The notes beneath the pieces are model-generated. The model was not told where the DNA came from, ran no database searches, and saw nothing but the letters and a program-made list of their open reading frames with translations. The position numbers were made by a program, and so were the translations under genes. From assembly GCF_024734665.1 (NCBI RefSeq), contig NZ_CP102931.1, positions 6,074,001 to 6,138,000 on the forward strand: a stretch of DNA of 64,000 nt, in the 5' to 3' direction. This stretch comes from Variovorax paradoxus. Lineage in GTDB: Bacteria; Pseudomonadota; Gammaproteobacteria; Burkholderiales; Burkholderiaceae_C. Shown in pieces: positions 8,168 through 21,001 of this stretch (position 1 is the stretch's first letter; each line of letters starts with the position of its first letter).

Positions 8168-9090
8168 GAGCCATCCTGGTAACGGGCGCCGACCTCGCGC
8201 CGCAGGCACTCGACCTCCTCGAGGGATACGAAGTCATCTACGCGGGCAAGACGCCGACCGAGGACGACCTCGTGGCGCTGTGCCGCGCGCATGACCCCGT
8301 GGCCATCATCGTCCGCTACGGCAAGGTGGGCGCGGCGGTCATGAACGCGGCCTCTTCGCTCAAGGTGATCTCCAAGCACGGCAGCGGCACGGACACGATC
8401 GACAAGGCGGCCGCACAGGCGCGCGGCATCGAAGTGGTCGCGGCCGTGGGCGCCAATGCCGCGGCGGTGGCCGAGCAGGCGCTCGCGCTGCTCCTGGCCT
8501 GCGCCAAGTCGGTGGTGGCGCTGGACGCGCGCATGCATGCCGGCCACTGGGACAAGGCAACGCACAAGAGCCTCGAGCTCGGCGGCCGCACCATCGGCCT
8601 CATCGGGCTCGGCGCCATCGGGCTGCGTTTCGCGCGCATGGCCGATGCGCTGGGCATGCGCGTGCTTGGGTTCGATCCGTACGCCAAGAACCTTCCGGCG
8701 TACGTACAAGCCGTGGACCTGGCGACCATCTGGGCCGAATCGGATGCCATCTCTCTGCACTGCCCGTTGACGGACGACAACCGCGGGCTGCTCAACGCCG
8801 AGACGCTGGCACGATGCAAGCGCGGCGTGATCGTCATCAACACGGCACGCGGCGGCCTGATCGAAGAGGCTGCGCTGCTGGCGGCGGTCCGCTCGGGCCA
8901 GGTGGCCATGGCCGGGCTGGACAGCTTCGCGGTCGAGCCGATGGCGCCCGGCCATCCGTTCCAGGGCGAGAAGAACTTCGTGCTGAGCCCCCACATCGGC
9001 GGCGTGACCAGCGATGCCTACGTGAACATGGGCGTGGGTGCGGCGAAGAATCTGCTGCAAGTCATCACACGCCAGACGACGGCCGCTTGA
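8164..9090 (+). CDS. NAD(P)-dependent D-2-hydroxyacid dehydrogenase
   Basis: The 308-residue protein is a D-isomer-specific 2-hydroxyacid dehydrogenase. The nucleotide-binding GLGAIG lies at residues 148-153. The catalytic triad is visible as Arg229 (NTARGG), Glu258 (FAVEP) and His277 (SPHIGG). It probably interconverts a 2-oxo acid and a D-hydroxy acid feeding or leaving the neighbouring aldolase step. The GTG start at 8164 overlaps the aldolase stop by four bases, which implies translational coupling. The substrate is not deducible. Confidence 0.9.
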   Translation: MRAILVTGADLAPQALDLLEGYEVIYAGKTPTEDDLVALCRAHDPVAIIVRYGKVGAAVMNAASSLKVISKHGSGTDTIDKAAAQARGIEVVAAVGANAAAVAEQALALLLACAKSVVALDARMHAGHWDKATHKSLELGGRTIGLIGLGAIGLRFARMADALGMRVLGFDPYAKNLPAYVQAVDLATIWAESDAISLHCPLTDDNRGLLNAETLARCKRGVIVINTARGGLIEEAALLAAVRSGQVAMAGLDSFAVEPMAPGHPFQGEKNFVLSPHIGGVTSDAYVNMGVGAAKNLLQVITRQTTAA

Positions 9091-9152
9091 GAGCCTGAGG
9101 CTCGGGGCTGCAGGGCAGCCTGCATCATCCGGACCAGAACAAGGAGACAAGA

Positions 9153-10139
9153 ATGAACAGAGGCAAGAACGCCCGCCGGGCGATGGCCATGCTCGGGCTG
9201 ATTGGGCTTCAGGCCGCGCTGGCAACAGCGCATGCGCAGACCTGGCCAGCCAAGCCGGTGCGCATCCTCGTCGGCTTTTCCGCAGGCGGCCCCACCGATG
9301 TGGTGGCGCGCGCCTTTGCCGACCATGCATCGCGCGCCCTGGGCCAGCCCTTCATCGTCGACAACAAGCCCGGCGCCAACACGATCCTCGCAGCCGAGGC
9401 AGTCGCTGCCGCGCCGGCCGACGGCTACACGCTGCTGCTGGGCGCAACGAATCACACGATGATCCCCGCTCTCTACAGCCAGCGGGTCAAGTTCGACGCC
9501 GTGCGGTCGTTCGCTCCGGTGTGCTCGCTCGCCGTGAGCCCGACGGTGCTGGTCGTCGGGCCATCGATGCCCGTCAAGTCGTTCGGCGCGTTCCTGCAGG
9601 CGGTGAAGGCCGAACCGGGCAAGCGCACCTATGCCACGCCGGGCTCGGGCAGCTCGGGGCATTTCGCGAGTGCGCAGTTCACGCGGCTGACAGGCACGTC
9701 GATGAACCACATTCCGTACAAGGGCGCGGCGCAGGCGACGACCGATCTCATGGGAGGCCAGGTCGACAGCTCTTTCGCCACGCTGGGCTCGGTGCTCACA
9801 CAGGTGCAGTCGGGCAAGCTGACGGCCCTGGCCGTGGCGGCGCCGAAGCGATCGGCATTGCTGCCGGACGTGCCGACTTTCGAGGAGGTGGGCGTCAAGG
9901 GCTACACGGCTGACGCGTGGTACGGCCTGCTTGCGCCCGCCAGAACGCCGCCGGAAGTCCTGGCCGTGCTGCGCCGCGCAGCCACCGAGTTTGCGCAAGC
10001 GCCGGCCACGCAAGAGAAGCTGCGCTCGCTCGGCATGGAAGCACAGAACACCTGCGCCGATGCCTTCGGCGCGCAACTGGCGCGCGAGGTCAGGCTCTAC
10101 GGCGAGGTGGCCCGAACGCTCGACCTCAAGACCGAATGA
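9153..10139 (+). CDS. Bug-family substrate-binding protein of a tripartite tricarboxylate transporter (2 of 3)
   Basis: The 328-residue periplasmic receptor has a signal peptide ending near ATAHAQT. The Bug motifs are WPAKPVRILVGFSAGGPTD, FIVDNKPGANTILAAE and PADGYTLLLGA. A GGAGA ribosome-binding site lies at about 9142-9146. It is one of three clearly diverged paralogues in this cluster, so they probably differ in ligand. It lies between the dehydrogenase and the third receptor on the same strand. Confidence 0.92.
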   Translation: MNRGKNARRAMAMLGLIGLQAALATAHAQTWPAKPVRILVGFSAGGPTDVVARAFADHASRALGQPFIVDNKPGANTILAAEAVAAAPADGYTLLLGATNHTMIPALYSQRVKFDAVRSFAPVCSLAVSPTVLVVGPSMPVKSFGAFLQAVKAEPGKRTYATPGSGSSGHFASAQFTRLTGTSMNHIPYKGAAQATTDLMGGQVDSSFATLGSVLTQVQSGKLTALAVAAPKRSALLPDVPTFEEVGVKGYTADAWYGLLAPARTPPEVLAVLRRAATEFAQAPATQEKLRSLGMEAQNTCADAFGAQLAREVRLYGEVARTLDLKTE

Positions 10140-10159: not shown

Positions 10160-11119
10160 ATGATGAAGGCCATCCAACGCATGCTCGCCGCATGCCTCTT
10201 CACTGCTGCCGTGTCCGCACAGGCGGCCTTTCCGGACCGCCCCATCACGCTCGTCGTGCCGTATGCGCCGGGCGGCTCCGCGGACGCGCTGGCGCGCGTG
10301 CTGGCGGTGCGCATGGGCGAGAAGCTGGGCACCAGCGTGATCGTCGACAACAGGCCCGGCGCCAGCGGAACCATCGGCGCGAGCTTTGCCGCCAAGGCCG
10401 CGCCCGACGGCTACACGGTGCTCTACGACGCCACGCCGTACTCGATTAATCCACATCTCTTTCCCCGCATGCCGTACGCCGGCAATGCCCTGCAGCCGCT
10501 GGCGCTCGTCTCGCTGGCGCCCAACATCGTGATCGTCCGCGCGGAGTCGCCGGTGAAGAGCATCAAGGACCTCGCGGACCGGGCGAAGGCCGAACCCGGG
10601 AAACTCAACTTCGCATCGGGCGGAAGCGGCACCGTGCAGCGGCTGGCGGCGGAACTGCTGCGCCAGCGGCTCGGGCTCGACATGGTGCATGTCGGCTACA
10701 AGAGCGGCGGCCCCGCCATCTCCGACGTCATGGGCGGGCAGGTCGACTTCATGTTCAGCACCATCGCGGCGTCGTATCCGCTCGTGTCTTCCGGCAAGCT
10801 GCGCGCGCTGGCGGTGTCGTCGCCGCAGCGCTCTGCGCGCCTGCCCGATGTGCCGACCATCGCCGAAACCGTTGCGCCCGGCTACGAGGCCTACGAGTGG
10901 AACGGCCTGCTCCTGCCGGCGGGCACGCCCGCGCCCATCGCCGACAAACTCCACAAGGCGGTGGTCGATGCCCTGAAGAATGACGAAGTGAAGCGGCGCT
11001 TCGTGGATGTGGGCGTGCAGCCGGTCGGCTCGACGCCATCCGAGTTCGCCGACTTCCTGAAGAAGGAAGATGCGAAGTGGGCGGAAGTGATCCGCAAGGG
11101 CAACATCAAGCTCGACTGA
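10160..11119 (+). CDS. Bug-family substrate-binding protein of a tripartite tricarboxylate transporter (3 of 3)
   Basis: The 319-residue receptor has a signal peptide (KAIQRMLAACLFTAAVSAQA). Its Bug motifs are FPDRPITLVVPYAPGGSAD, IVDNRPGASGTIG and PDGYTVLYDA. The ATG at 10160 is chosen because AAGGA lies at 10151-10155. An ATG at 10136 overlaps the preceding stop and would add eight residues. Together with the other two receptors it suggests a broad carboxylate-scavenging role for the cluster. Confidence 0.92.
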   Translation: MMKAIQRMLAACLFTAAVSAQAAFPDRPITLVVPYAPGGSADALARVLAVRMGEKLGTSVIVDNRPGASGTIGASFAAKAAPDGYTVLYDATPYSINPHLFPRMPYAGNALQPLALVSLAPNIVIVRAESPVKSIKDLADRAKAEPGKLNFASGGSGTVQRLAAELLRQRLGLDMVHVGYKSGGPAISDVMGGQVDFMFSTIAASYPLVSSGKLRALAVSSPQRSARLPDVPTIAETVAPGYEAYEWNGLLLPAGTPAPIADKLHKAVVDALKNDEVKRRFVDVGVQPVGSTPSEFADFLKKEDAKWAEVIRKGNIKLD

Positions 11120-12035: not shown

Positions 12036-12956
12036 TTGTACCTGCTTCAAGCGCCCCAGGTGCTGGACCTGCAGACCTTCACCAGCATGCCCGAGTCCTT
12101 TCGCCGCCCGGAGCCCAGCGTCTGGGCCGATGCCAATCGCGGCGGGCAGGTGACCGACTCCTTCCTCGAAGGCCCTGTGTTCGACGACGACGGCAACCTC
12201 TACGTCACGGACATCCCTTTCGGCCGGATCTTCCGCATCGACACATCGGGCGAATGGACACTGGTCGCCGAATACGACGGCGAGCCGAACGGCATGAAGT
12301 TCGTCGACGCACACGCCCTGCTCGTCACCGACTACAAGAACGGCCTGATGCGGGTGGATGTGCGAACCGGCCGCATCACGCCACACCTTCAGCGGCGCAA
12401 CACCGAGAGCTTCAAGGGCGTGAACGACCTGGTGCTCGATGCGCGAGGCAACGTGTATTTCACGGACCAGGGCCAGAGCGGCTTGCACGACCCATCGGGT
12501 CGCCTGTATCGCCTGAGGCCCGACGGGCAGCTCGACCTGCTGCTGTCCAACGTGCCCAGCCCGAATGGCGTCGCCCTCTCGCCGGACGGCAAGGTGCTCT
12601 ATCTCGCGGTGACGCGCGGCAACTGCGTCTGGCGCGCGCCCTTGCTGGCCGACGGGAGCGTTGCCAAGGTGAGCCAGTTCTTCACGTCCTACGGGCCCAG
12701 CGGCCCTGATGGGCTCGCGGTCGACACGCAGGGGCGAGTGCTGGTGGCCAACCCCGGCCTGGGCTATGTCTGGGTGCTCAACACGCGCGCCGAACCCGTC
12801 ATGGTGCTGCGCGGGCCCACCGGTGCGTCGACGACGAACATTGCCTTCGGCGGCCCTGGCAGGTCGACCTTGTTCGTCACCGACTCCACGCACGGCAACG
12901 TGCTGAAGCTGGCACTCGACGCTCCTGGCGTGGAACTTCATCGCTGGTCGTCCTAG
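12036..12956 (+). CDS. SMP-30/gluconolactonase/LRE family protein
   Basis: The six-bladed beta-propeller hydrolase shows the family pattern: LEGPVFDDDGNLYVTDI (Glu metal ligand), KGVNDLVLDARGNVYFTD, PNGVALSPDGKVLY and GPDGLAVDTQGRVLVANPG. Members hydrolyse aldonolactones and related lactones with a divalent metal. A TTG at 12036 with AGGAGA about ten bases upstream gives 306 residues. An ATG at 12087 is the alternative. It is the last gene of the cluster and is followed directly by a terminator. The natural substrate is unknown. Confidence 0.87.
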   Translation: MYLLQAPQVLDLQTFTSMPESFRRPEPSVWADANRGGQVTDSFLEGPVFDDDGNLYVTDIPFGRIFRIDTSGEWTLVAEYDGEPNGMKFVDAHALLVTDYKNGLMRVDVRTGRITPHLQRRNTESFKGVNDLVLDARGNVYFTDQGQSGLHDPSGRLYRLRPDGQLDLLLSNVPSPNGVALSPDGKVLYLAVTRGNCVWRAPLLADGSVAKVSQFFTSYGPSGPDGLAVDTQGRVLVANPGLGYVWVLNTRAEPVMVLRGPTGASTTNIAFGGPGRSTLFVTDSTHGNVLKLALDAPGVELHRWSS

Positions 12957-12975
12957 CCCCGCAGCGGGCTTTTTT
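12956..12975 (+). terminator. Rho-independent terminator after the SMP-30 gene
   Basis: CCCG-CAG-CGGG forms a short GC-rich stem directly after the stop codon and is followed by an uninterrupted T run. It closes the catabolic cluster before the IscR-like gene. Confidence 0.7.
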
Positions 12976-13009
12976 CGATTTGTTTCAAAAAAGGCCTTTA
13001 CCTCCCGAA

Positions 13010-13057
13010 GGAAACTTTCCCGGTCTTTTGCACACCTATCACGCATTGTTTGCAAAA
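13010..13057. promoter_or_regulatory. Inverted repeats upstream of the IscR-like gene
   Basis: The 100-base leader holds GGAAACTTTCC at 13010-13020, a palindrome around one base. It also holds TTTTGCA at 13026-13032 paired with TGCAAAA at 13051-13057. Either could be an autoregulatory site for the downstream Rrf2-family protein. This rests on symmetry and position only. Confidence 0.3.
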
Positions 13058-13078
13058 CCCAACACCGAGGAACACTCC

Positions 13079-13621
13079 ATGCGTCTCACGACGAAGGGCG
13101 GCTTCGCCTTGACGGCCATGATCGATGTCGCCATGCGCGAACGGGATGGCCCCGTACCGTTGGCGTCGATCAGCCGACGACAGCACATTGCCCGCTCGTC
13201 GCTCGAACTGCTGTTCAGCAAGCTGCGCCAGCATGCGCTGATCAAGGCAACGCGCGGACCGGGCGGCGGCTACACGCTGACGCGCAGGGCGTCCGAAATC
13301 ACCGTGGCGGACATCCTCGCTTCGGTCGATGGCCAGCCACTGGCCGACACCGAAGCCTCGACGAACAAGGAAGACGCCGGCAGCAGCAAGGGCTGCTACT
13401 CGACCGATGCGTTGTGGGCCTCCGCCAAGCACCATGTCATGGAATTCCTGGGCTCCGTCACGCTGCAGAGCCTGGTCGAAGACCAGCTGGCCAAGGGCGT
13501 GCGCGTCGAGCACGAGCCCCCGAAGAAGAAAGAAGCCCCACCGAGCCCCGCGGCCCTGCCGATGCGCGTGAACGCGCCGAACTCGGTGTTCGCGTGGAAC
13601 GGCGTGTTCGCCAAGCGCTGA
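13079..13621 (+). CDS. Rrf2/IscR-family transcriptional regulator lacking most Fe-S ligands
   Basis: The 180-residue protein begins MRLTTKGGFALTAMIDVA and continues through LELLFSKLRQ and RGPGGGYTLTR, so the winged helix-turn-helix is clearly of the IscR type. IscR normally binds [2Fe-2S] with three closely spaced cysteines. Here only Cys106 (GCYSTDALW) remains, and the two earlier positions are replaced within TEASTNKEDAGSSKG. It probably regulates without a cluster, or with a different cofactor. The C-terminal tail (PPKKKEAPPSP onward) is longer than in IscR. No isc or suf genes are adjacent. Start ATG 13079 gives the conserved N-terminus. Confidence 0.85.
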   Translation: MRLTTKGGFALTAMIDVAMRERDGPVPLASISRRQHIARSSLELLFSKLRQHALIKATRGPGGGYTLTRRASEITVADILASVDGQPLADTEASTNKEDAGSSKGCYSTDALWASAKHHVMEFLGSVTLQSLVEDQLAKGVRVEHEPPKKKEAPPSPAALPMRVNAPNSVFAWNGVFAKR

Positions 13622-13664
13622 AGACAAAGCAGGCTTTACATGGCCGACTGACCTGAAACGCAAG

Positions 13665-13700
13665 GCGCATTACGGGTTTTGAAAACTCGTACGGCAAGGG
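13665..13700 (+). promoter_or_regulatory. Repeat motif A, candidate FecI-type ECF sigma promoter
   Basis: ACGGGTTTTG at 13672-13681 and GGCAAGG at 13693-13699 flank a CTCGTAC stretch. Two similar copies occur at 14492-14530 and 17191-17220. The CGT at 13688-13690, with GCGCATT about 16 bases upstream, resembles the -10/-35 arrangement of iron-starvation sigma promoters. It precedes the SGNH gene. Confidence 0.5.
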
Positions 13701-13730
13701 ATCGATGCTTCCGGAAAACGCCGGAGGCCC

Positions 13731-14471
13731 TTGCCGGAGATCGCCTTGGTTTCTCTTTCCGCACGCCCCCACGCGGCCTGTGTCCGCCTGTCCGACATCG
13801 CTTTCACGCTGCTTGCCATCCTTGCGATCGGTGCGCTGGTCCCCGCCTGCGGAGGCGACAGGGGCAGCAGCAATAGCCACAGCAGCAGTGCCCCGACCCG
13901 TCCGGCAGCGTCCGCGAAAGCTCCCGACGACGCACCCCGCGACTGCACCGTCACCCTGGAGGGCGACTCGATCCTCCACGGTGCCTACGGCTACAACAAG
14001 CGCTTCGACGAGCCGCCCGCGGCGATGCTCAAGCGCCTGCGGCCGGCCTACACGGTGTTCGACAACAGCGCGCCGGGGTCGACAGCCACCCAGCGCGCGC
14101 CCGCCTTCTCCAGCACACCGCTGACCACGCATTTCGTGGTGCTGCAACACGGCATCAACGACGGGCAGTTCGGCCAGCCCTACGAGCCGGCGCTGCGCCG
14201 CATGGTGGCGCACGTGCAGGCCCAGGGGCGCACGCCGGTCATCACCGGCCTCAGCCGCCAGACGCACCCCGCACCGGGCAGGGACGCGGCCGACAACATC
14301 GCCCGGCGCGTGGCCGGCGAAACCGGCGCGCTGTTTGCCGACTGGGGCGCCGTTTCCTTCAAGCCCGCCGAAATGGCCGACGTGCTGCACCCCGCGCCCG
14401 CCTACAGCGAACGGCTGGTCGGGCGCATCGTGGCCTTGCTCGACCAGGCCGCGCCCGAGTGCAGGTACTGA
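13731..14471 (+). CDS. SGNH/GDSL-family hydrolase, probable lipoprotein
   Basis: About 246 residues. The four GDSL-family blocks can be traced: LEGDSI with nucleophile Ser80, a Gly in the DNSAPGST stretch, HGIND, and DVLHP with Asp217 and His220. An N-terminal hydrophobic stretch ends at Cys40 (LVPAC), which suggests a lipoprotein followed by a low-complexity Ser/Ala linker. Family members are esterases or lipases. Next to an iron-type signalling locus it could act on a siderophore ester, but that is inference. The start is uncertain: the TTG at 13731 has a close GGAGG, and the TTG at 13746 has GGAG at better spacing. Confidence 0.8.
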   Translation: MPEIALVSLSARPHAACVRLSDIAFTLLAILAIGALVPACGGDRGSSNSHSSSAPTRPAASAKAPDDAPRDCTVTLEGDSILHGAYGYNKRFDEPPAAMLKRLRPAYTVFDNSAPGSTATQRAPAFSSTPLTTHFVVLQHGINDGQFGQPYEPALRRMVAHVQAQGRTPVITGLSRQTHPAPGRDAADNIARRVAGETGALFADWGAVSFKPAEMADVLHPAPAYSERLVGRIVALLDQAAPECRY

Positions 14472-14491
14472 CGCCCGCAACTTTTTTCGAT

Positions 14492-14530
14492 GCGCCATTA
14501 CGGGTTTTGGCGGCTCCGTTCGGCAAGGAA
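14492..14530 (+). promoter_or_regulatory. Repeat motif B, candidate FecI-type ECF sigma promoter
   Basis: ATTACGGGTTTTG ending at 14509 and CGGCAAGG ending at 14528 match motif A, with one base more between the two blocks. CGT lies at 14517-14519. It precedes the membrane protein gene at 14637 and keeps exactly the block spacing of motif C. Confidence 0.5.
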
Positions 14531-14636
14531 GTGAATTCACCTGAGACCGAAAGAGGAGCCGCCTCGCCATGCTTCAGAGCACTTTCCATACACCATCGCC
14601 CAAGTCGCTCACATCGCCCCGCCAGGAGGCTGCCAG

Positions 14637-15257
14637 ATGAGCGTCAGCAGCCTTTGCATCGTCGCGACCGCCTTCTTCGCGCTCGGCGCCGTCTGGTTCA
14701 CGGGCAAGGCGCTCAGTGTGCGCGCCGCGGGCACGCCGCCGGCCCACATCGGCGCGCGGCCGGGGCCCGTCGCCACGCGCGAGCGCATCGACCTGCGACA
14801 GCCGCTGCGCGCGCTCGCCGTCACCCACGGGGCGACGCTGGCGCAACGCGGCATCGGGCTCGACCTGCGCCTGCCGGAAGATCCGCTGCCGGTGGCCGTG
14901 ATCGCCGGCGACCTGCCCCAGCTCATGGCGCACATCGCCGACGCGGCGGCCGCCACCTTGCCGCAGGGCACGACGCTGCACGTGCTGGCGCGCGCCGAAG
15001 GGCACCAGGCGGTGATCAGCTGGCGCGAGGCCACTATCGACAGCGACACCGGCATCGACGCACCCCGCCTGTCGCACGCCTTCGAAACCAGCGCCGGCCG
15101 CGCGGCCACGCCCCGCATCCATGCCTGCCGGGCCATCGTGGCGCGGCACGGCGCGCGCATCTACACCGCGCCCTCGCCTCTGGGCGACGGCTGTCTCACG
15201 CTGCGGTTTCCGCTGTACGGCGACCGCGCGGCGCGTGCCCCGAAGGGGTTGCTGTGA
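14637..15257 (+). CDS. Membrane protein with degenerate histidine-kinase-type ATPase domain
   Basis: The 206-residue protein has one N-terminal membrane segment (residues 5-25). The rest reads like a worn GHKL ATPase module: LPQLMAHIADAA stands in the N-box position, and ACRAIVARHGARIYTAPSPLGDGCLTLRFPL matches the usual kinase C-terminus. The N-box Asn, the DxGxG box and the glycine-rich lid are not recognisable, and there is no dimerisation domain with a phospho-His. ATP binding is therefore doubtful. A strong AGGAGG at 14624-14629 fixes the start. It lies between motif B and the sigma factor gene and may belong to the same regulon. Confidence 0.65.
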   Translation: MSVSSLCIVATAFFALGAVWFTGKALSVRAAGTPPAHIGARPGPVATRERIDLRQPLRALAVTHGATLAQRGIGLDLRLPEDPLPVAVIAGDLPQLMAHIADAAAATLPQGTTLHVLARAEGHQAVISWREATIDSDTGIDAPRLSHAFETSAGRAATPRIHACRAIVARHGARIYTAPSPLGDGCLTLRFPLYGDRAARAPKGLL

Positions 15258-15544
15258 TGGCCACCCCCTGGCTCTTCGTGCCGCCGCGCCCCCGCGCACG
15301 AACACGGGCGCGAGCCACCGTCGGTGTCACTGGCTCCCTGCGCTCCTGGCTGGCCAGCGTGTGCTGCCTCGGCGCGGCGGCGGGCGGCCTTGCGCTGTCG
15401 ATCGGCCTCGGGCGCTGCGAGGCTGGCAGCACCAGCGCCACCAGCCTGTCCACGCTCGCGCCGATCATGCAGACCCGGGGCCATCCCCCGGCGGGATGCA
15501 GCCGCGGCAGTAAATCTTTCACAAATGTCAACCCAGTGAGATAG
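15257..15544 (+). CDS. Small hypothetical membrane protein
   Basis: The 95-residue frame has a start ATG that overlaps the preceding stop (TGATG). It is rich in Arg at the N-terminus and has one hydrophobic stretch (LASVCCLGAAAGGLALSIGL, about residues 30-50). No family is recognised. The overlap suggests coupling to the upstream gene, but high GC makes spurious frames common and the C-terminal part looks low in information. It ends four bases before the sigma factor gene. Confidence 0.4.
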   Translation: MATPWLFVPPRPRARTRARATVGVTGSLRSWLASVCCLGAAAGGLALSIGLGRCEAGSTSATSLSTLAPIMQTRGHPPAGCSRGSKSFTNVNPVR

Positions 15545-15548
15545 ATTC

Positions 15549-16097
15549 ATGCCTGCAACGCTCGCTGCGTTCCCGAACGACTTCTCTCTGCCTTCCATGC
15601 CGGACCGTCCTCCCACGCGCAGTGTGGAAACCCTCTATGGCGACCACCACGGCTGGCTGCTCGGATGGCTGCGCCGCAAGCTCGGCCACGCGGGCGACGC
15701 CGCCGACCTCGCACAGGACACATTCGTGCGCGTGCTGGGCCGTCCGGGCGATGTCGAAGAGGTGCGCGAGCCGCGTGCCTGGCTCACCACCATCGCGCAC
15801 GGCCTCGTGGTCGACCACGTGCGCCGCCGCACGCTGGAGCGCGCCTGCATGGAAGCCATCGCGGCCCTGCCGGAGCCGCAGGCGCCCTCGCCCGAGACGC
15901 AACTGCTGCTGGTCGAGGCGCTGGTGCGCATCGACACCATGCTCGACGGCCTCCCGCCCAAGGCGCGCAGCGCCTTCCTGCTCTCGCGGCTCGACGGCCT
16001 CGGCTATGCCGAGATCGCGCAGCGCCTGAACGTGAGCCTGAGCTCGGTCGAGAAATACATGGCAACTGCCATCCGCCACTGCTTGGCGCTGCGATGA
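15549..16097 (+). CDS. FecI-type ECF RNA polymerase sigma factor
   Basis: The 182-residue protein has sigma-70 region 2 (LYGDHHGWLLGWLRRKLGHAGDAADLAQDTFVRVL, then PRAWLTTIAHGLVVDHVRRR) and region 4 (LPPKARSAFLLSRLDGLGYAEIAQRLNVSLSSVEKYM). This is the FecI pattern. It is paired with a FecR regulator whose start overlaps its stop by four bases, and with an STN-type TonB receptor. The set works as a cell-surface signalling system in which the loaded receptor releases the sigma factor. Three similar motifs at 13665, 14492 and 17191 are candidate targets. Confidence 0.93.
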   Translation: MPATLAAFPNDFSLPSMPDRPPTRSVETLYGDHHGWLLGWLRRKLGHAGDAADLAQDTFVRVLGRPGDVEEVREPRAWLTTIAHGLVVDHVRRRTLERACMEAIAALPEPQAPSPETQLLLVEALVRIDTMLDGLPPKARSAFLLSRLDGLGYAEIAQRLNVSLSSVEKYMATAIRHCLALR

Positions 16098-17167
16098 AAC
16101 CTGCATTCCCCTCTTCTTCTCCTTCGTCCGGCGACGGCGGCAACGCCTCCGACCTGCTCGAACAGGCCATCGCCTGGGTCGTGCGGCTGGGCTCCGGCAG
16201 CGCGGACGAAACAACGCACAACGCCTGCGACGCATGGCGCGCCGCGCACCCCGCGCACGAACAGGCCTGGCAGCAGGTGCAGGCCGTGGAAGACGCCTTC
16301 CGCCAGGTGCCGCGCATCGGCAGCGGCATGAGCAGTGACATGGGCGACGCAGGCGGCGCGCTGGCCCACGGCGCGCTGCAGGCCGCGACCCTGATGCGCG
16401 CGCAACAGCAGCGGCAGCAGCAAAGCCGGCGCCGCGCGCTCAGCGTGCTGGGCCTGGCTGTCACCGGCGGCGTTGTCGGCCTGTTCGTCTGGCGCGAAAC
16501 GCCCTGGGAACGGCGCACCAACTACGCCACCGCCGTGGGCGAGCGCCGGCGCGTGACGCTGGCCGACGGCACCGAGCTGAACATCAACACCGGCTCCGAG
16601 GTGCAGGTGATCTTTTCGCCGCGCCAGCGGCGCATCGTGCTGAGCCGCGGCGAGCTCTTCGTGCGCACCGGCGCCGACAGCGGCGCGCTGCTGGGCCACC
16701 GCGCCTTCTGGGTCGAGACGCCGCATGCCCGCTTCGAGGCGCTGGGCACGCGCTTCGGCGTGCGCGAGCAGGACGACCAGACACGGCTGTCGCTCACCGA
16801 AGGCCGCGTGGCCATCCACACCGAAGGCGCACCGCCGGTGGTCGCGCAGGCGGGCGACGGCTACATCGTGCGCGGCGGCGCGGCACAGCCCCAGCGCATC
16901 GTGGACCGCAGCTTCGAGCCCGACGCCTGGACCGACGGCGCTCTGGTGGCCCGGCAGATGCGCCTGGACGCCTTCGTCGCCGAACTCGCGCGCTACCACG
17001 GCACGCCGCTGCTGTGCGATGCGGACGTGGCCTCGCTGCGCGTGTCGGGCGTGTTCCAGCTCAACGGCCCCGACCCGGTCGGCCGTGCGCTCGAAGCGCT
17101 GGTTCGCACACTGCCTGTACGGCTCGAACATGGCACAGGAGGCACATTGACTGTTGCGCGACGTTGA
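16094..17167 (+). CDS. FecR-family anti-sigma regulator
   Basis: The 357-residue inner-membrane protein has an N-terminal DUF4880-like segment (residues 20-65, LEQAIAWVVRLGSG to HPAHEQAWQQV), one membrane helix near residues 120-141 and a periplasmic FecR domain (RRVTLADGTELNINTGSEVQV, LSRGELFVRTG). The C-terminal part (VAELARYHGTPLLCDADVASLRVSGVF) is the STN-like region that contacts the receptor. It inhibits or activates the upstream sigma factor depending on receptor occupancy. Start ATG 16094 overlaps the sigma stop (ATGA). Confidence 0.93.
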   Translation: MKPAFPSSSPSSGDGGNASDLLEQAIAWVVRLGSGSADETTHNACDAWRAAHPAHEQAWQQVQAVEDAFRQVPRIGSGMSSDMGDAGGALAHGALQAATLMRAQQQRQQQSRRRALSVLGLAVTGGVVGLFVWRETPWERRTNYATAVGERRRVTLADGTELNINTGSEVQVIFSPRQRRIVLSRGELFVRTGADSGALLGHRAFWVETPHARFEALGTRFGVREQDDQTRLSLTEGRVAIHTEGAPPVVAQAGDGYIVRGGAAQPQRIVDRSFEPDAWTDGALVARQMRLDAFVAELARYHGTPLLCDADVASLRVSGVFQLNGPDPVGRALEALVRTLPVRLEHGTGGTLTVARR

Positions 17168-19590
17168 GACGGCTTTCTCCGGACCGCCCACCCGGGTTCT
17201 GGCGGTTCCGGCCGGCAAGGCCCACCCTGCTTCCCGCGCTGCTGCTGGGCGTCGCGGCGGGATGGGCTGCGCCCGCAGGATCCGCACGCGCACAGGCGCA
17301 GGCTTCCGCGCGCGCCGGTTTCGATGTTCCGGCCGGCGCGCTCGAAGACGCGCTCAGCACCTTCGCGCGCCAGGCCGGCATCACGCTGTCTTTCGATCCG
17401 GCGCTGGTGCATGGCAAGAGTGCCGCCGCGCTCCAGGGCAGCCGCACGGTGCCCGAAGGCTTGGCCGAGCTGCTGTCGCCCCACCAGCTGGAGGCCGTGC
17501 CCGGCAGCAGCGGCGCCTATGCGGTGCGCCCGGCCGTCGCCACGGCGGCAACCCCGGGCACCGGCAGCACGCTGCCCACGCTCACCGTCACCGCGCAGGG
17601 CGAGCGCGCTGACGGCCAGGTGCAGGGCTACGTGGCGCAGCGCAGCGCCACCGCCACACGCACCGACACGTCGCTGCTCGAAACGCCGCGCGCCGTCACC
17701 GTCGTCACGCGCGCGCAGATGGACGACCAGGCCGTGCACACCGTCGAGCAGTCGCTGCGCTACTCCGCCGGCGTGCTCACCGAGGTCAGCGGCTACGACC
17801 CGCGCTTCGCGTCGCTCACGGTGCGAGGCTTCACGCCCGCCGAATACCTCGACGGCTTCAAGCTCCCCACCACCAGCCTCGTCACGCGGTGGCTGGTCGA
17901 GCCGCAGGCGCTGGAACGCGTCGAGCTGCTGAAAGGACCGGGCGCGGTCTACGACCCGTCGGCGCCGGGCGGGTCCATCAACATGGTGTCGAAGCGCCCT
18001 TCGGCGGAGGCGGTTCGCGAGGTGAGCCTTTCGGTAGGCAATCGCAACCGCTACCAGGGCAGCTTCGACCTCGGCGGCGCGATGACCGCCGACGGCAGCC
18101 TGCTCTTCAGGCTCAACGGCGTGCTGCGCAACAGCAACGGCCAGACCGACTTCTCGCGCGACGACCGCGGCTTCATCGCACCGTCGCTGACGTGGACGCC
18201 ATCGCCGCGCACCAAGGTCACGCTGATGGCCGAGGCCACGCGCGACCGCATGACGCCCAAGAGCATCTGGCCCGAAGGCGCGCTCATCTCGCCCAACCCC
18301 AACGGCAGCATTCCGCGCGAGCGCTTCATCGGCGAGCCCGGCTTCGACCGCTACAACCGCGACGCGTTCTCGCTCACCTACCTGCTGGAGCACCAGCTGA
18401 ACGACAACTGGACGCTGCGGCAGAACGCGCGCCACGCGACGCTCGACATCGACTACCGGCAGGTCTACGGCACCGGCTTCGAGAGCGACCTGCGCACGCT
18501 CGACCGCTCGGCGGTGCGGATGAAGGACAGGAGCCGCACCACCACGCTCGACACCCAGCTCGAAGGGCGCTTTCGCACCGGGCCGGTGGAGCACACGCTG
18601 CTGATGGGGCTGGAGTACCAGCGCCAGAGCAGCACCACGCAGACCAGCGTCGATCCGGCCTCTTCCATCGATGCCTTCGCACCGGTCTATGGCGCGCCCG
18701 TGCCCGAGCCCGCGTTCTCCGTTCAGTCGACCAACGGCATCACGCAGCGCGGGTTCCATGTGCAGGACCAGATGCGCGCGGGGCCGTGGTCCCTCGGGCT
18801 GGCCGTGCGGCAGGACCGGGCGCACAACAGCGCCAGCCCGGGGCCGCAGGCGGCAGCGTCGTCCATCGGCCTCGACACCAACACCAAGACCACCTACAAC
18901 GCGGGCCTGCTCTACCTCGCGCCGAACGGCCTGGCGCCCTACTTCAGCTACTCGACCTCGTTCACCCCGCTGCTGGGCACCATCGCCGGCGGCGGCGACC
19001 TCCTGAAGCCCGAGCTCGGCCGGCAGTTCGAGGTGGGCCTGAAGTACCGTCCGCCGGACGTGGACGCACTGTTCACCGTGTCGGTCTTCGACCTGAAGAA
19101 GAACAACTCGCCCACGTTCACCCCGTACGTGCTCAACCCGGTTTCGCAGATCGGCGAGGTGCGCACGCGCGGCCCGGAGTTCGAGGCGCGCGCCTCGCTG
19201 ACCCGACAGCTCAAGCTGGTGGCCAGCTACACCCTGCTCGACGCAAAGATCACCCGCAGCCTGAACCCCGAAGAACTGGGCAAGCAGCCGCTCAACACAG
19301 CGCGCCAGACCGCCGCGCTGTGGCTCGACTACCGCTTCGGCAGCTCCGAGCTGCAGGGCTGGAGCGTGGGCGGCGGCGTGCGCCGTGTCGGCAAGGTGCC
19401 GGCCAGCGTGGACAACAGCAGCTACAACCCGGCCTACACACTGGTCGACGCGGCCATCCGCTACGAACGCGGCCCCTACAGCTTTGCGCTGAACGCCACC
19501 AATCTCTTCGACAAGAGCTACGTCGCGGGCTACGGCCAGTACTTCGGCCAGGGGCGCACGGTGCAGGCGAAGCTCACCTACCGCTGGTAG
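17164..19590 (+). CDS. TonB-dependent siderophore receptor with STN signalling domain
   Basis: About 808 residues. Order: signal sequence (LLPALLLGVAAGWAAPAGSARAQ), STN domain (FDVPAGALEDALSTFARQAGITLSF), plug (ETPRAVTVVTRAQMDDQ, RGFTPAEYLDGFKLP, VELLKGPGAVYDPSAPGG) and a 22-strand-type barrel ending NLFDKSYVAGYGQYFGQGRTVQAKLTYRW. This is the FhuA/FecA architecture of a receptor that imports a ferric siderophore and signals to FecR. The start is uncertain because no ATG or GTG lies close by. TTG 17164 overlaps the fecR stop, but then repeat motif C would be inside the coding sequence. A CTG near 17227 is the alternative. Confidence 0.92.
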   Translation: MRRLSPDRPPGFWRFRPARPTLLPALLLGVAAGWAAPAGSARAQAQASARAGFDVPAGALEDALSTFARQAGITLSFDPALVHGKSAAALQGSRTVPEGLAELLSPHQLEAVPGSSGAYAVRPAVATAATPGTGSTLPTLTVTAQGERADGQVQGYVAQRSATATRTDTSLLETPRAVTVVTRAQMDDQAVHTVEQSLRYSAGVLTEVSGYDPRFASLTVRGFTPAEYLDGFKLPTTSLVTRWLVEPQALERVELLKGPGAVYDPSAPGGSINMVSKRPSAEAVREVSLSVGNRNRYQGSFDLGGAMTADGSLLFRLNGVLRNSNGQTDFSRDDRGFIAPSLTWTPSPRTKVTLMAEATRDRMTPKSIWPEGALISPNPNGSIPRERFIGEPGFDRYNRDAFSLTYLLEHQLNDNWTLRQNARHATLDIDYRQVYGTGFESDLRTLDRSAVRMKDRSRTTTLDTQLEGRFRTGPVEHTLLMGLEYQRQSSTTQTSVDPASSIDAFAPVYGAPVPEPAFSVQSTNGITQRGFHVQDQMRAGPWSLGLAVRQDRAHNSASPGPQAAASSIGLDTNTKTTYNAGLLYLAPNGLAPYFSYSTSFTPLLGTIAGGGDLLKPELGRQFEVGLKYRPPDVDALFTVSVFDLKKNNSPTFTPYVLNPVSQIGEVRTRGPEFEARASLTRQLKLVASYTLLDAKITRSLNPEELGKQPLNTARQTAALWLDYRFGSSELQGWSVGGGVRRVGKVPASVDNSSYNPAYTLVDAAIRYERGPYSFALNATNLFDKSYVAGYGQYFGQGRTVQAKLTYRW
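17191..17220 (+). promoter_or_regulatory. Repeat motif C, candidate FecI-type ECF sigma promoter before the TonB receptor
   Basis: CGGGTTCTG at 17193-17201 and CGGCAAGG ending at 17220 repeat motifs A and B, with the same spacing as B. The CGT is replaced by CGG. It sits between fecR and the receptor body, the usual place for the FecI-dependent promoter. Confidence 0.45.
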
Positions 19591-19609
19591 CCACCACGGC
19601 AGCGGCTGG

Positions 19610-21001
19610 TCAGCGCAGCGTCGCGTGCGGATGCAGCGGATGCGCCAGCGTGTCCGCAATCAACCGCAGCGCCTGATCGCACTGCTCGCGCGACATCGGC
19701 CCGCCCAGGCAGATGCGCACCGCATCGGGCGGGTCGCCATCGGTGGAAAAAGCCGCACTCGCCACCACGCCCACGTTCTGCGTGCGCAGGTACGACGCGA
19801 ACTCCACCGGGCTCCATCCCGGCGTGAGCGGCAGCCAGGCATGAAAGCCCTCGGGGTGCGCCTGCAGGCCGCTGTCGCCCAGGTAGCGCGTGGCCAGCAG
19901 TTGCCGCGCCACCGACTCCGCGCGCACCGCCTGCAGCATCTCTTCGGTCGTGCCGTCTTCCACCCACATCGTGGTCAGCGCGTTGGTGATCGGCGAGGCC
20001 ATCACCGTGGTGGCGCGCATCGCACCCGCCAGCCGCTGCGACTGCACCACCGTCGGCGAGCACACGTACGCGCTACGCAGCCCCGCGCCGAAGCACTTGG
20101 AGAAACCGCTCACGTAATAAGTGAGCCCCGGCGCCAGCGTGGCCAGCGACGCGGGCGTCTGGCGCGGCAGCATGCCGTAGGCGTCGTCCTCGATGATCGG
20201 TACCGCATAGCGCAGCGCCACGTCGGCCAGCGCCTCGCGCCGCGCGCGCGACACGGTGGCGGCCGTGGGGTTCAGCAGCGTGGGGTTGCAGTACAGCGCC
20301 TTGGGCTTGAGCGTCTTGCAGGCGTGCTCGAAGGCATCGGCGATGGGGCCGTCGTCGTCCATCTGCAGCGCGTGCAGCTGCACGCCGAGCTGCGCCGCGA
20401 TGGCTTTCACGCCGGGGTAGGTGAGCGACTCCACGCAGATCAGCTCGCCCGGCCGCGCCAGCTGCGAGAACAGCGCGGTCAGCACGCCGTGGATACCAGG
20501 GCACACCAGGATGCGGTCGACGCTCGCCTCGGGCACGAAGGGCCGCAGCCAGTGCATGGCGGCGGCGCGGTCGTGCGCGGTGCCGCCGAAGTCCTGGTAG
20601 CGCAGCAGGTCGTGGAAATCGACCTGCGCAAAGGCGCGACTCGCGCTGTCGTGCAGCCGTGCCATCAGGTGCTCGTCGCCGGGCTCGGGCGGCATGTTCA
20701 TCGTCATCTCGGCGCCGCTGCCGCCGCGCAGCCGCAGGCTCGGGCTGCCCGAGCGAATGAAGGTGCCGGTGCCGGCGCGCGAGTCGATCAGCCCGCGCTT
20801 GCGTGCCTCGGCGTAGCCGCGCGCCACCGTCGTGTAGTTCAGCTCCAGGTCGGCAGCCAGCTCGCGCAGCGTGGGCAAGCGGTCGCGCACGCCGAGGCGA
20901 CCGGTCTTGATGTCGTCGGCGATCAGGTCGGCCAGCAGCAGGTAGGCCGGCCGGGAGGTGTTGCGCAGCTGCTTGCGCCAGTGGGCGGTGATCGTGGTCA
21001 T
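19610..21001 (-). CDS. MocR-family PLP-dependent transcriptional regulator
   Basis: The 463-residue protein joins a GntR-type winged helix-turn-helix (residues 12-80, LPTLRELAADLELNYTTVARGY) to a fold-type-I aminotransferase domain. PLP-binding residues are visible: Lys302 (SGFSKCFG), Asp272/Tyr275 (IIEDDAYG) and Asn239 (CNPTLLNPT). MocR proteins sense PLP or amino compounds and usually control a divergent operon. Here that operon is the Nit1C set, and the shared 354-bp region carries many repeats. ATG 21001 gives the conserved N-terminus; an ATG at 21043 would extend through one repeat. Confidence 0.9.
   Translation of the reverse strand: MTTITAHWRKQLRNTSRPAYLLLADLIADDIKTGRLGVRDRLPTLRELAADLELNYTTVARGYAEARKRGLIDSRAGTGTFIRSGSPSLRLRGGSGAEMTMNMPPEPGDEHLMARLHDSASRAFAQVDFHDLLRYQDFGGTAHDRAAAMHWLRPFVPEASVDRILVCPGIHGVLTALFSQLARPGELICVESLTYPGVKAIAAQLGVQLHALQMDDDGPIADAFEHACKTLKPKALYCNPTLLNPTAATVSRARREALADVALRYAVPIIEDDAYGMLPRQTPASLATLAPGLTYYVSGFSKCFGAGLRSAYVCSPTVVQSQRLAGAMRATTVMASPITNALTTMWVEDGTTEEMLQAVRAESVARQLLATRYLGDSGLQAHPEGFHAWLPLTPGWSPVEFASYLRTQNVGVVASAAFSTDGDPPDAVRICLGGPMSREQCDQALRLIADTLAHPLHPHATLR

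Follow-up and report, generated by a model that had tools for sequence, protein, structure and literature searches.

According to a review, fecIR of Escherichia coli is Fur-regulated and not autoregulated, and iron-uptake surface-signalling sigma factors are described there generally as not activating their own genes (PMC9249621). According to the same review, the sigma factor of Serratia HasI/HasS/HasR also regulates its own anti-sigma gene (PMC9249621). In Pseudomonas aeruginosa PUMA3 (VreAIR), the surface-signalling sigma factor controls non-receptor genes, and receptor and sigma genes share one operon (PMC4971064, PMC2729926). A paper on extracytoplasmic function (ECF) sigma factors of S. 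meliloti reports that no FecI motif was found in that species (PMC6180224). None of the titles and abstracts listed in literature searches dealt with the locus described here or with relocation of FecI promoters.

We analysed 64,000 nucleotides of Variovorax paradoxus (GCF_024734665.1, contig NZ_CP102931.1, positions 6,074,001 to 6,138,000), hereafter the window, in which a FecI-type ECF sigma gene is followed by genes for a FecR-type anti-sigma factor and a TonB-dependent siderophore receptor (Table 1). The locus resembles E. coli fecIR-fecA in sigma subfamily, in promoter blocks and their spacing (TTTT-N8-CGTTCG), in FecR and in a receptor with a signalling domain, whereas E. coli has one site, at fecA, and the Variovorax sites precede an operon that includes the sigma gene itself. 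It also resembles FoxIRA-type ferrioxamine signalling, a FoxA chain being the closest receptor by solved structure. As in the Has system, the sigma factor would regulate its anti-sigma gene; Has differs in its heme receptor, and in Variovorax, with a siderophore receptor, transcription of the sigma gene would start from that promoter as well. Non-receptor targets and a shared receptor and sigma operon are common to PUMA3 and the Variovorax system, but VreA lacks a barrel, and VreI controls at least 27 genes and failed to induce a vreA fusion. An earlier, sequence-only reading of the window had taken the additional targets to be the unusual feature of the regulon, and for these PUMA3 is a precedent. 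The unusual point is that there is no intact receptor promoter, the element standing instead before the operon that holds the sigma gene.

Promoter elements of the locus

Direct reading of the window confirmed the three motif copies (A, B and C) reported from sequence alone, all on the plus strand, with the two blocks 11, 12 and 12 bases apart as stated. Copy A consists of ACGGGTTTTG (13672-13681) and GGCAAGG (13693-13699) and contains CGTACGG, while copy B has its first block at 14500-14509, GGCAAGG at 14522-14528 and contains CGTTCGG; CGT is therefore held by A and B, as had been noted. In copy C, CGGGTTCTG (17193-17201) is followed by GGCAAGG (17214-17220), with CCGGCCGG in place of the CGT block. 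The further claim that every copy precedes a gene stands for A and B but probably not for C, which seems to lie inside the receptor frame. The likeliest start of that frame is the TTG at 17164, and a 4-nt overlap of this TTG with the fecR stop was seen in all seven loci compared, the window among them. Of 27 positions compared between B and C, 4 differ; no other place in the 64 kb, on either strand, has fewer than 9 mismatches to B, and the best match to B in 60 simulated windows never had fewer than 6. The strict form ACGGGTTTTG-N8-14-GGCAAGG matched twice in the whole 7.29-Mb genome, namely at A and B, and its reversed control gave no match there.

A motif was then learned from 29 non-redundant fecR-receptor junctions of FecI paralogs in the genus, the window locus being excluded. 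Of 46 junctions extracted, 5 with a misplaced fecR end were dropped and the other 41 were thinned to 29 by similarity; six in which the motif site looked wrong were kept. The unsupervised search returned AAaTTTTTt....cTgtCc.tTTTt.cg.TCTCGt.cGG. Scanned over the window as a fixed motif, it scored highest at B (24.0 bits, against 7.7 for the best unrelated place after it), and it gave the E. coli fecA promoter 23.0 bits. With one base of spacer play allowed, B reached 32.2 bits (rank 1 of 127,908; next unrelated place 12.6), and C scored 7.0 bits (rank 23). Of the 14 A-type and B-type sites in seven related loci, 11 took first or second place, the misses being B in G059 (rank 67), A in G007 (rank 4) and B in G483 (rank 4). 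The FecI-type layout is AAATTTTTT / TGTCCYTTTT or TTRCGGGTTT / TCGTTCGGC. B has the T-tract, the TGTCC/CGGGTTTT block and the CGTTCGG block at the set spacing; A in the window strain is without the T-tract, which is present in relatives, and C is without CGT. Several scores weigh against this assignment: copy A reached only 5.2 bits (rank 29 of 127,908) because its T-tract is missing in the window strain, B of G059 scored -3.0 with the general motif, its core being intact, and C of G483 (15.8) exceeded B of G483 (10.3). Taken together, we assign A and B to FecI-type promoters with high confidence, as judged from sequence, and the genus-wide motif provides a usable search tool for such promoters.

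The sequence-only reading had placed A and B among iron-starvation sigma promoters instead. The box of such PvdS/OrbS-type promoters is TAAAT-N16/17-CGT. Both copies do contain CGT, but direct reading found no TAAAT 16-17 bases 5' of it in either. Moreover, the sigma factor matches the FecI subfamily, and the motif fits FecI receptor junctions as well as E. coli fecA, so that an iron-starvation type is highly improbable and the FecI type takes its place.

Conservation and extent of the predicted regulon

The sigma factor is at least 81% identical in 7 of 101 Variovorax genomes (next best 61%), and in an eighth genome, G007, the locus is represented by its front part alone, next to a contig edge. 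Strict sites were counted in eight Variovorax genomes selected for carrying the locus. Each of the eight has exactly two inside it, and together they have 11 matches off the locus versus 18 for the reversed control; thus no wider regulon of strict sites is seen. A-type sites precede the SGNH hydrolase gene or, in G483, G491 and G059 (the last by eye), a gene encoding a small protein that has two hydrophobic helices, and B-type sites precede the kinase-like gene in related loci. The blocks are kept in relatives, while spacer sequences differ and spacer lengths vary by one base. Across the genus (101 genomes), the short pattern was matched 18 times, in 14 genomes; 11 of these matches lie in orthologous loci, and the control gave 3. 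Across 399 genomes of the family it gave 18 matches in 17 genomes (one being B) versus 23 for the reversed control, and is therefore uninformative outside the clade.

These results support a predicted ECF-sigma regulon of FecI type, local to the locus, that includes the SGNH hydrolase and the kinase-like protein, each preceded by a site. To that extent the regulon proposed from sequence alone holds: its motif clusters at the locus in this genome and in related Variovorax, with off-locus matches not above control. The receptor has no intact copy of its own.

Two other explanations of A and B were weighed against this conservation. They might belong to a repeat element or be operators of a different regulator, for example the Rrf2-type protein whose gene occupies 13079-13621. 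That gene is immediately 5' of A in the window and near the locus in G016, G049, G051 and G007. However, the examined stretches of G059, G483 and G491 had no Rrf2 match, though both sites are kept, the element tracks the sigma subfamily across genera, and off-locus copies do not exceed control, all of which makes this very unlikely. Alternatively, the conserved entity might be a short peptide rather than a DNA signal, since B and C of the window read ...GFWR(L/F)R(S/P)AR in one frame. The same frame of A contains a stop, and the spacers of A-type and B-type sites differ by one base in length between relatives, which breaks the frame; a conserved peptide is extremely improbable.

Probable relocation of the promoter from the receptor gene

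The position of the element TTRCGGGTTT, with one mismatch allowed, was scanned in 80 named sigma relatives, 76 of them with enough downstream flank. The upstream search extended over up to 5 kb, as far as each locus reached (several reached much less), and receptor counts are lower bounds as the scan misses variant sites; for example, Pseudomonas nitroreducens and P. mangiferae keep TTACGGGTTT but with CCTTCGGC or GCTTCGAC. At more than 80% sigma identity (five Variovorax loci), the element occurred twice upstream in all five and at the receptor in none. At 66-80% identity (eight loci of other genera), it was found at the receptor in six and upstream in none. Lower identity bins had it at the receptor in 1/10, 1/16 and 1/37 loci, and none of the 71 loci below 80%, some with short upstream flank, had it upstream. 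Close sigma relatives in Delftia, Achromobacter and Oxalicibacterium share the element with the Variovorax loci but have one site each, at the canonical position between fecR and receptor and followed by ATG; their upstream DNA, as far as it was searched, contained none. The Delftia layout (fecR stop, five bases, T-tract, CATTACGGGTTT, CGTTCGGCA and ATG about 100 nt after the site start) is likely the ancestral plan. Given that other genera carry the element at the receptor, whereas Variovorax loci have it twice upstream and none intact at the receptor, the promoter was probably relocated from the receptor to the front of the operon in the Variovorax clade.

Copy C, the degenerate element at the receptor, begins three bases past the fecR stop. 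All six genomes in which C was examined have lost its CGT, and G059 has a 33-bp in-frame gap in place of C. C is likely a decayed relic of the ancestral receptor promoter, now within the frame of the receptor signal peptide. As C closely resembles B, a later exchange between the two is possible. C might, on the other hand, still be a working receptor promoter, inside or just 5' of a re-defined start, in which case the canonical promoter would still act. In favour of this, C lies 3 nt from the fecR stop, a distance close to the 5 nt seen in Delftia; G016, G049 and G051 have all retained CGGGTTCTGG, two of them (G016 and G051) also GGCAAGG, where G049 reads GACAAGG; and C of G483 ranks 2, above B (scores above). 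Set against this are the loss of CGT and the absence of C in G059 just described, a plausible signal peptide that runs in frame with C from the conserved TTG, and, in the window strain as read by eye, no in-frame ATG, GTG or TTG between C and the hydrophobic core. We consider a working promoter at C unlikely.

From the kinase-like gene through the receptor gene, neighbours overlap by 1 to 4 nt or sit 4 nt apart, and because of this spacing the kinase-like protein, small protein, sigma factor, FecR and receptor look like one coupled operon behind B. The 4-nt overlap of sigma and fecR genes is found in the window, G059, G483 and G491. Promoter type, conservation, site number and position, operon packing and the relocation pattern are results of computation; the circuit that they suggest is as follows. 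Ligand binding at the receptor would be signalled through FecR and free the sigma factor (15549-16097), which would transcribe the SGNH hydrolase gene from A and the operon from B. B would then drive all five operon genes, so that the system would raise its own sigma factor, FecR and receptor together. In evolution, the promoter element would have been copied or moved upstream while C, the old receptor site, degenerated and became part of the beginning of the receptor gene. That this sigma factor reads A and B is inferred with good confidence; the start sites are predictions. A self-activating circuit is predicted because B precedes sigma, FecR and receptor genes, and on balance positive autoregulation of the operon through B is favoured.

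Some observations weigh against full coupling. The stretch 15525-15548, GTCAACCCAGTGAGATAGATTC, before the sigma start is nearly constant in most relatives (conserved GTCAAC...AGTGAGATAGATTC), and the sigma gene may have a separate basal promoter inside the upstream gene, autoregulation then being partial. In G049 and G051, an insertion of about 150 nt separates sigma and fecR genes. The kinase-like gene of G051 may be broken or frameshifted. Regarding Fur, which regulates E. coli fecIR, no Fur box beyond chance was found at the Variovorax sigma gene (best match in the window 9/19, shuffle mean 9). The Delftia match reached 15/19, but many canonical loci gave 10-11, making this a weak test.

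The CGT position and the GGCAAGG block

The sequence-only reading had taken CGT as the -10 of A and B and had held that GGCAAGG is not explained by a promoter alone. In E. coli fecA, the Fur box lies at -36 to -17, and changes downstream of the start strongly cut transcription (PMC9249621). Aligned by this Fur box, the fecA sequence has its CGTTCG block at about +5 to +10. By analogy with this one promoter, CGT probably lies at or just 3' of the transcription start. Given the fecA position and the effect of downstream changes, a downstream block is a likelier role for CGTTCGGC than a -10, and the E. coli mutant data had hinted at such a block.

Of 23 leaders inspected by eye, 15 have GGC after the CG block, 8 have GGCA and 2 have the exact GGCAAGG. 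The GGC half is thus common among FecI-type leaders and part of the general downstream block, contrary to the earlier claim, and the AAGG end is typical of some groups. Before A, GGCAAGG doubles as an arm of a predicted RNA stem-loop. The A leader of the window folds with z -3.4 versus shuffles, and eight A leaders average -2.1 (G007, -0.1); in G016, G049 and G051 the stem pairs different letters (CCGGATG/CATCCGG). A stem-loop as the full explanation of GGCAAGG was rejected, as eight B leaders average +0.5. Receptor leaders were folded for 23 of the 29 junctions (the six with doubtful sites dropped, the site of L145 set by hand). Their mean z of -1.13 compares with -0.03 in 23 coding controls (p 0.003) and -0.47 in 22 upstream controls (p 0.045).

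A wider reading, which we offer tentatively and rate a little short of an even chance, is that a standard FecI circuit, Fur-gated and confined to the receptor, became self-amplifying in the Variovorax clade when the promoter moved upstream, the old promoter being absorbed into the receptor signal peptide, and that the CGTTCGGC block, often a predicted stem-loop arm, is a third element of FecI-type promoters generally. If true, this would be a natural rewiring in which a whole signalling operon became self-activating and the old promoter survived as a recognisable relic. A soil bacterium would then allow direct tests of promoter relocation in sigma circuits.

Genes of the locus

Table 1 Features of the FecI-type locus in the window (positions counted from the first base of the window).
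Feature	Coordinates	Strand	Description
Copy A	13672..13699	+	FecI-type promoter core ACGGGTTTTG-N6-CGTACGGCAAGG, 5' of SGNH hydrolase gene
Inverted repeat	13693..13735	+	GGCAAGGG (13693-13700) ... CCCTTGCC (13728-13735); predicted stem-loop near 5' end of A transcript
SGNH/GDSL hydrolase	13746..14471	+	PF13472 39 bits (cut-off 32.9); start TTG after GGAG; start region conserved
Copy B	14479..14528	+	Complete FecI-type promoter: T-tract AACTTTTTT, TTACGGGTTTT, CGTTCGGCAAGG
23-codon open reading frame (ORF; MLQ...)	14569..14640	+	AGAGGAG ahead; 4-nt overlap with kinase-like start
Kinase-like protein	14637..15257	+	Degenerate HATPase_c-like, membrane-anchored (by eye)
95-aa small protein	15257..15544	+	Hydrophobic stretch; start shares one base with previous stop (TGATG)
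FecI-type ECF sigma factor	15549..16097	+	Sigma regions 2 and 4; PRK09651 FecI subfamily 198.2 bits (cut-off 185)
FecR-type anti-sigma factor (DUF4880 + FecR)	16094..17167	+	PF04773 70.4 bits, PF16220 60.6 bits; both over cut-off
TonB-dependent siderophore receptor	17164..19590	+	FoxA/FhuA-like, signalling domain; TIGR01783 374.7 bits (cut-off 223.5)
Copy C	17171..17220	+	Degenerate promoter copy CGGGTTCTG ... CCGGCCGGCAAGG; inside predicted receptor signal-peptide frame

Against the stricter equivalog NF041727, the sigma factor scored 202.8 bits, under the cut-off of 260. The best solved relatives of the receptor are FoxA/CntO chains (E 3.5e-136), with residues 22-807 aligned to a full-length FoxA/CntO chain; the STN match (21.6 bits) is under its cut-off of 28.4. 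The receptor is of the FoxA/FhuA kind, and its ligand is probably a hydroxamate siderophore. The locus thus has the surface-signalling arrangement of a FecR-type anti-sigma factor beside a sigma factor and a receptor with an N-terminal signalling domain.

The kinase-like protein matched HATPase_c with 12.4 bits in the window and 19.3 in G483 (cut-off 26.4), and its C-terminus gave a weak BaeS match (20.4 bits, cut-off 603). Its ATP-binding boxes N, G1 and G2 were not recognisable by eye, and HisKA gave no match; the 14637-15257 product lacks the set of histidine kinase features, namely HATPase_c over cut-off, N/G1/G2 and a phospho-accepting domain. Among the 18 database relatives listed, those with names are hypothetical proteins, and the flanks of 14 more distant relatives (L040-L053) had no match to the sigma factor, FecR or receptor of the window. 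In G051 the gene was matched over residues 118-206 only (L038 about 8930-9375). The 95-aa protein has stretches 48-72% identical in G016, G049, G051, G483 and G491 and no match in G059. By eye, the layout of the MLQ ORF recurs in the same five genomes and is absent from G007 and G059; the ORF may encode a coupled leader peptide. An Rfam search of 12500-20000 gave no family at the gathering threshold.

The SGNH/GDSL hydrolase has an N-terminal signal and is possibly a lipoprotein; siderophore handling or signal tuning by the hydrolase or the kinase-like protein is guesswork. The two-helix protein genes lie at 6905-7300 of L109 (G483) and 7581-7990 of L110 (G491), both in reverse-complement coordinates, and in G059 a related two-helix protein gene lies 5' of the SGNH gene. 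Compared with G016, G049 and G051, the window is without a stretch of about 1.1 kb between the Rrf2 gene and A (13621-13672). The insertion in G049 and G051 (L036 about 8460-8620, L038 about 10225-10380) is palindrome-rich and resembles a small repeat element; the five remaining loci of the comparison do not have it. The window genome (G000) has four FecR-domain matches only, and another Variovorax species has 11 close FecI relatives.

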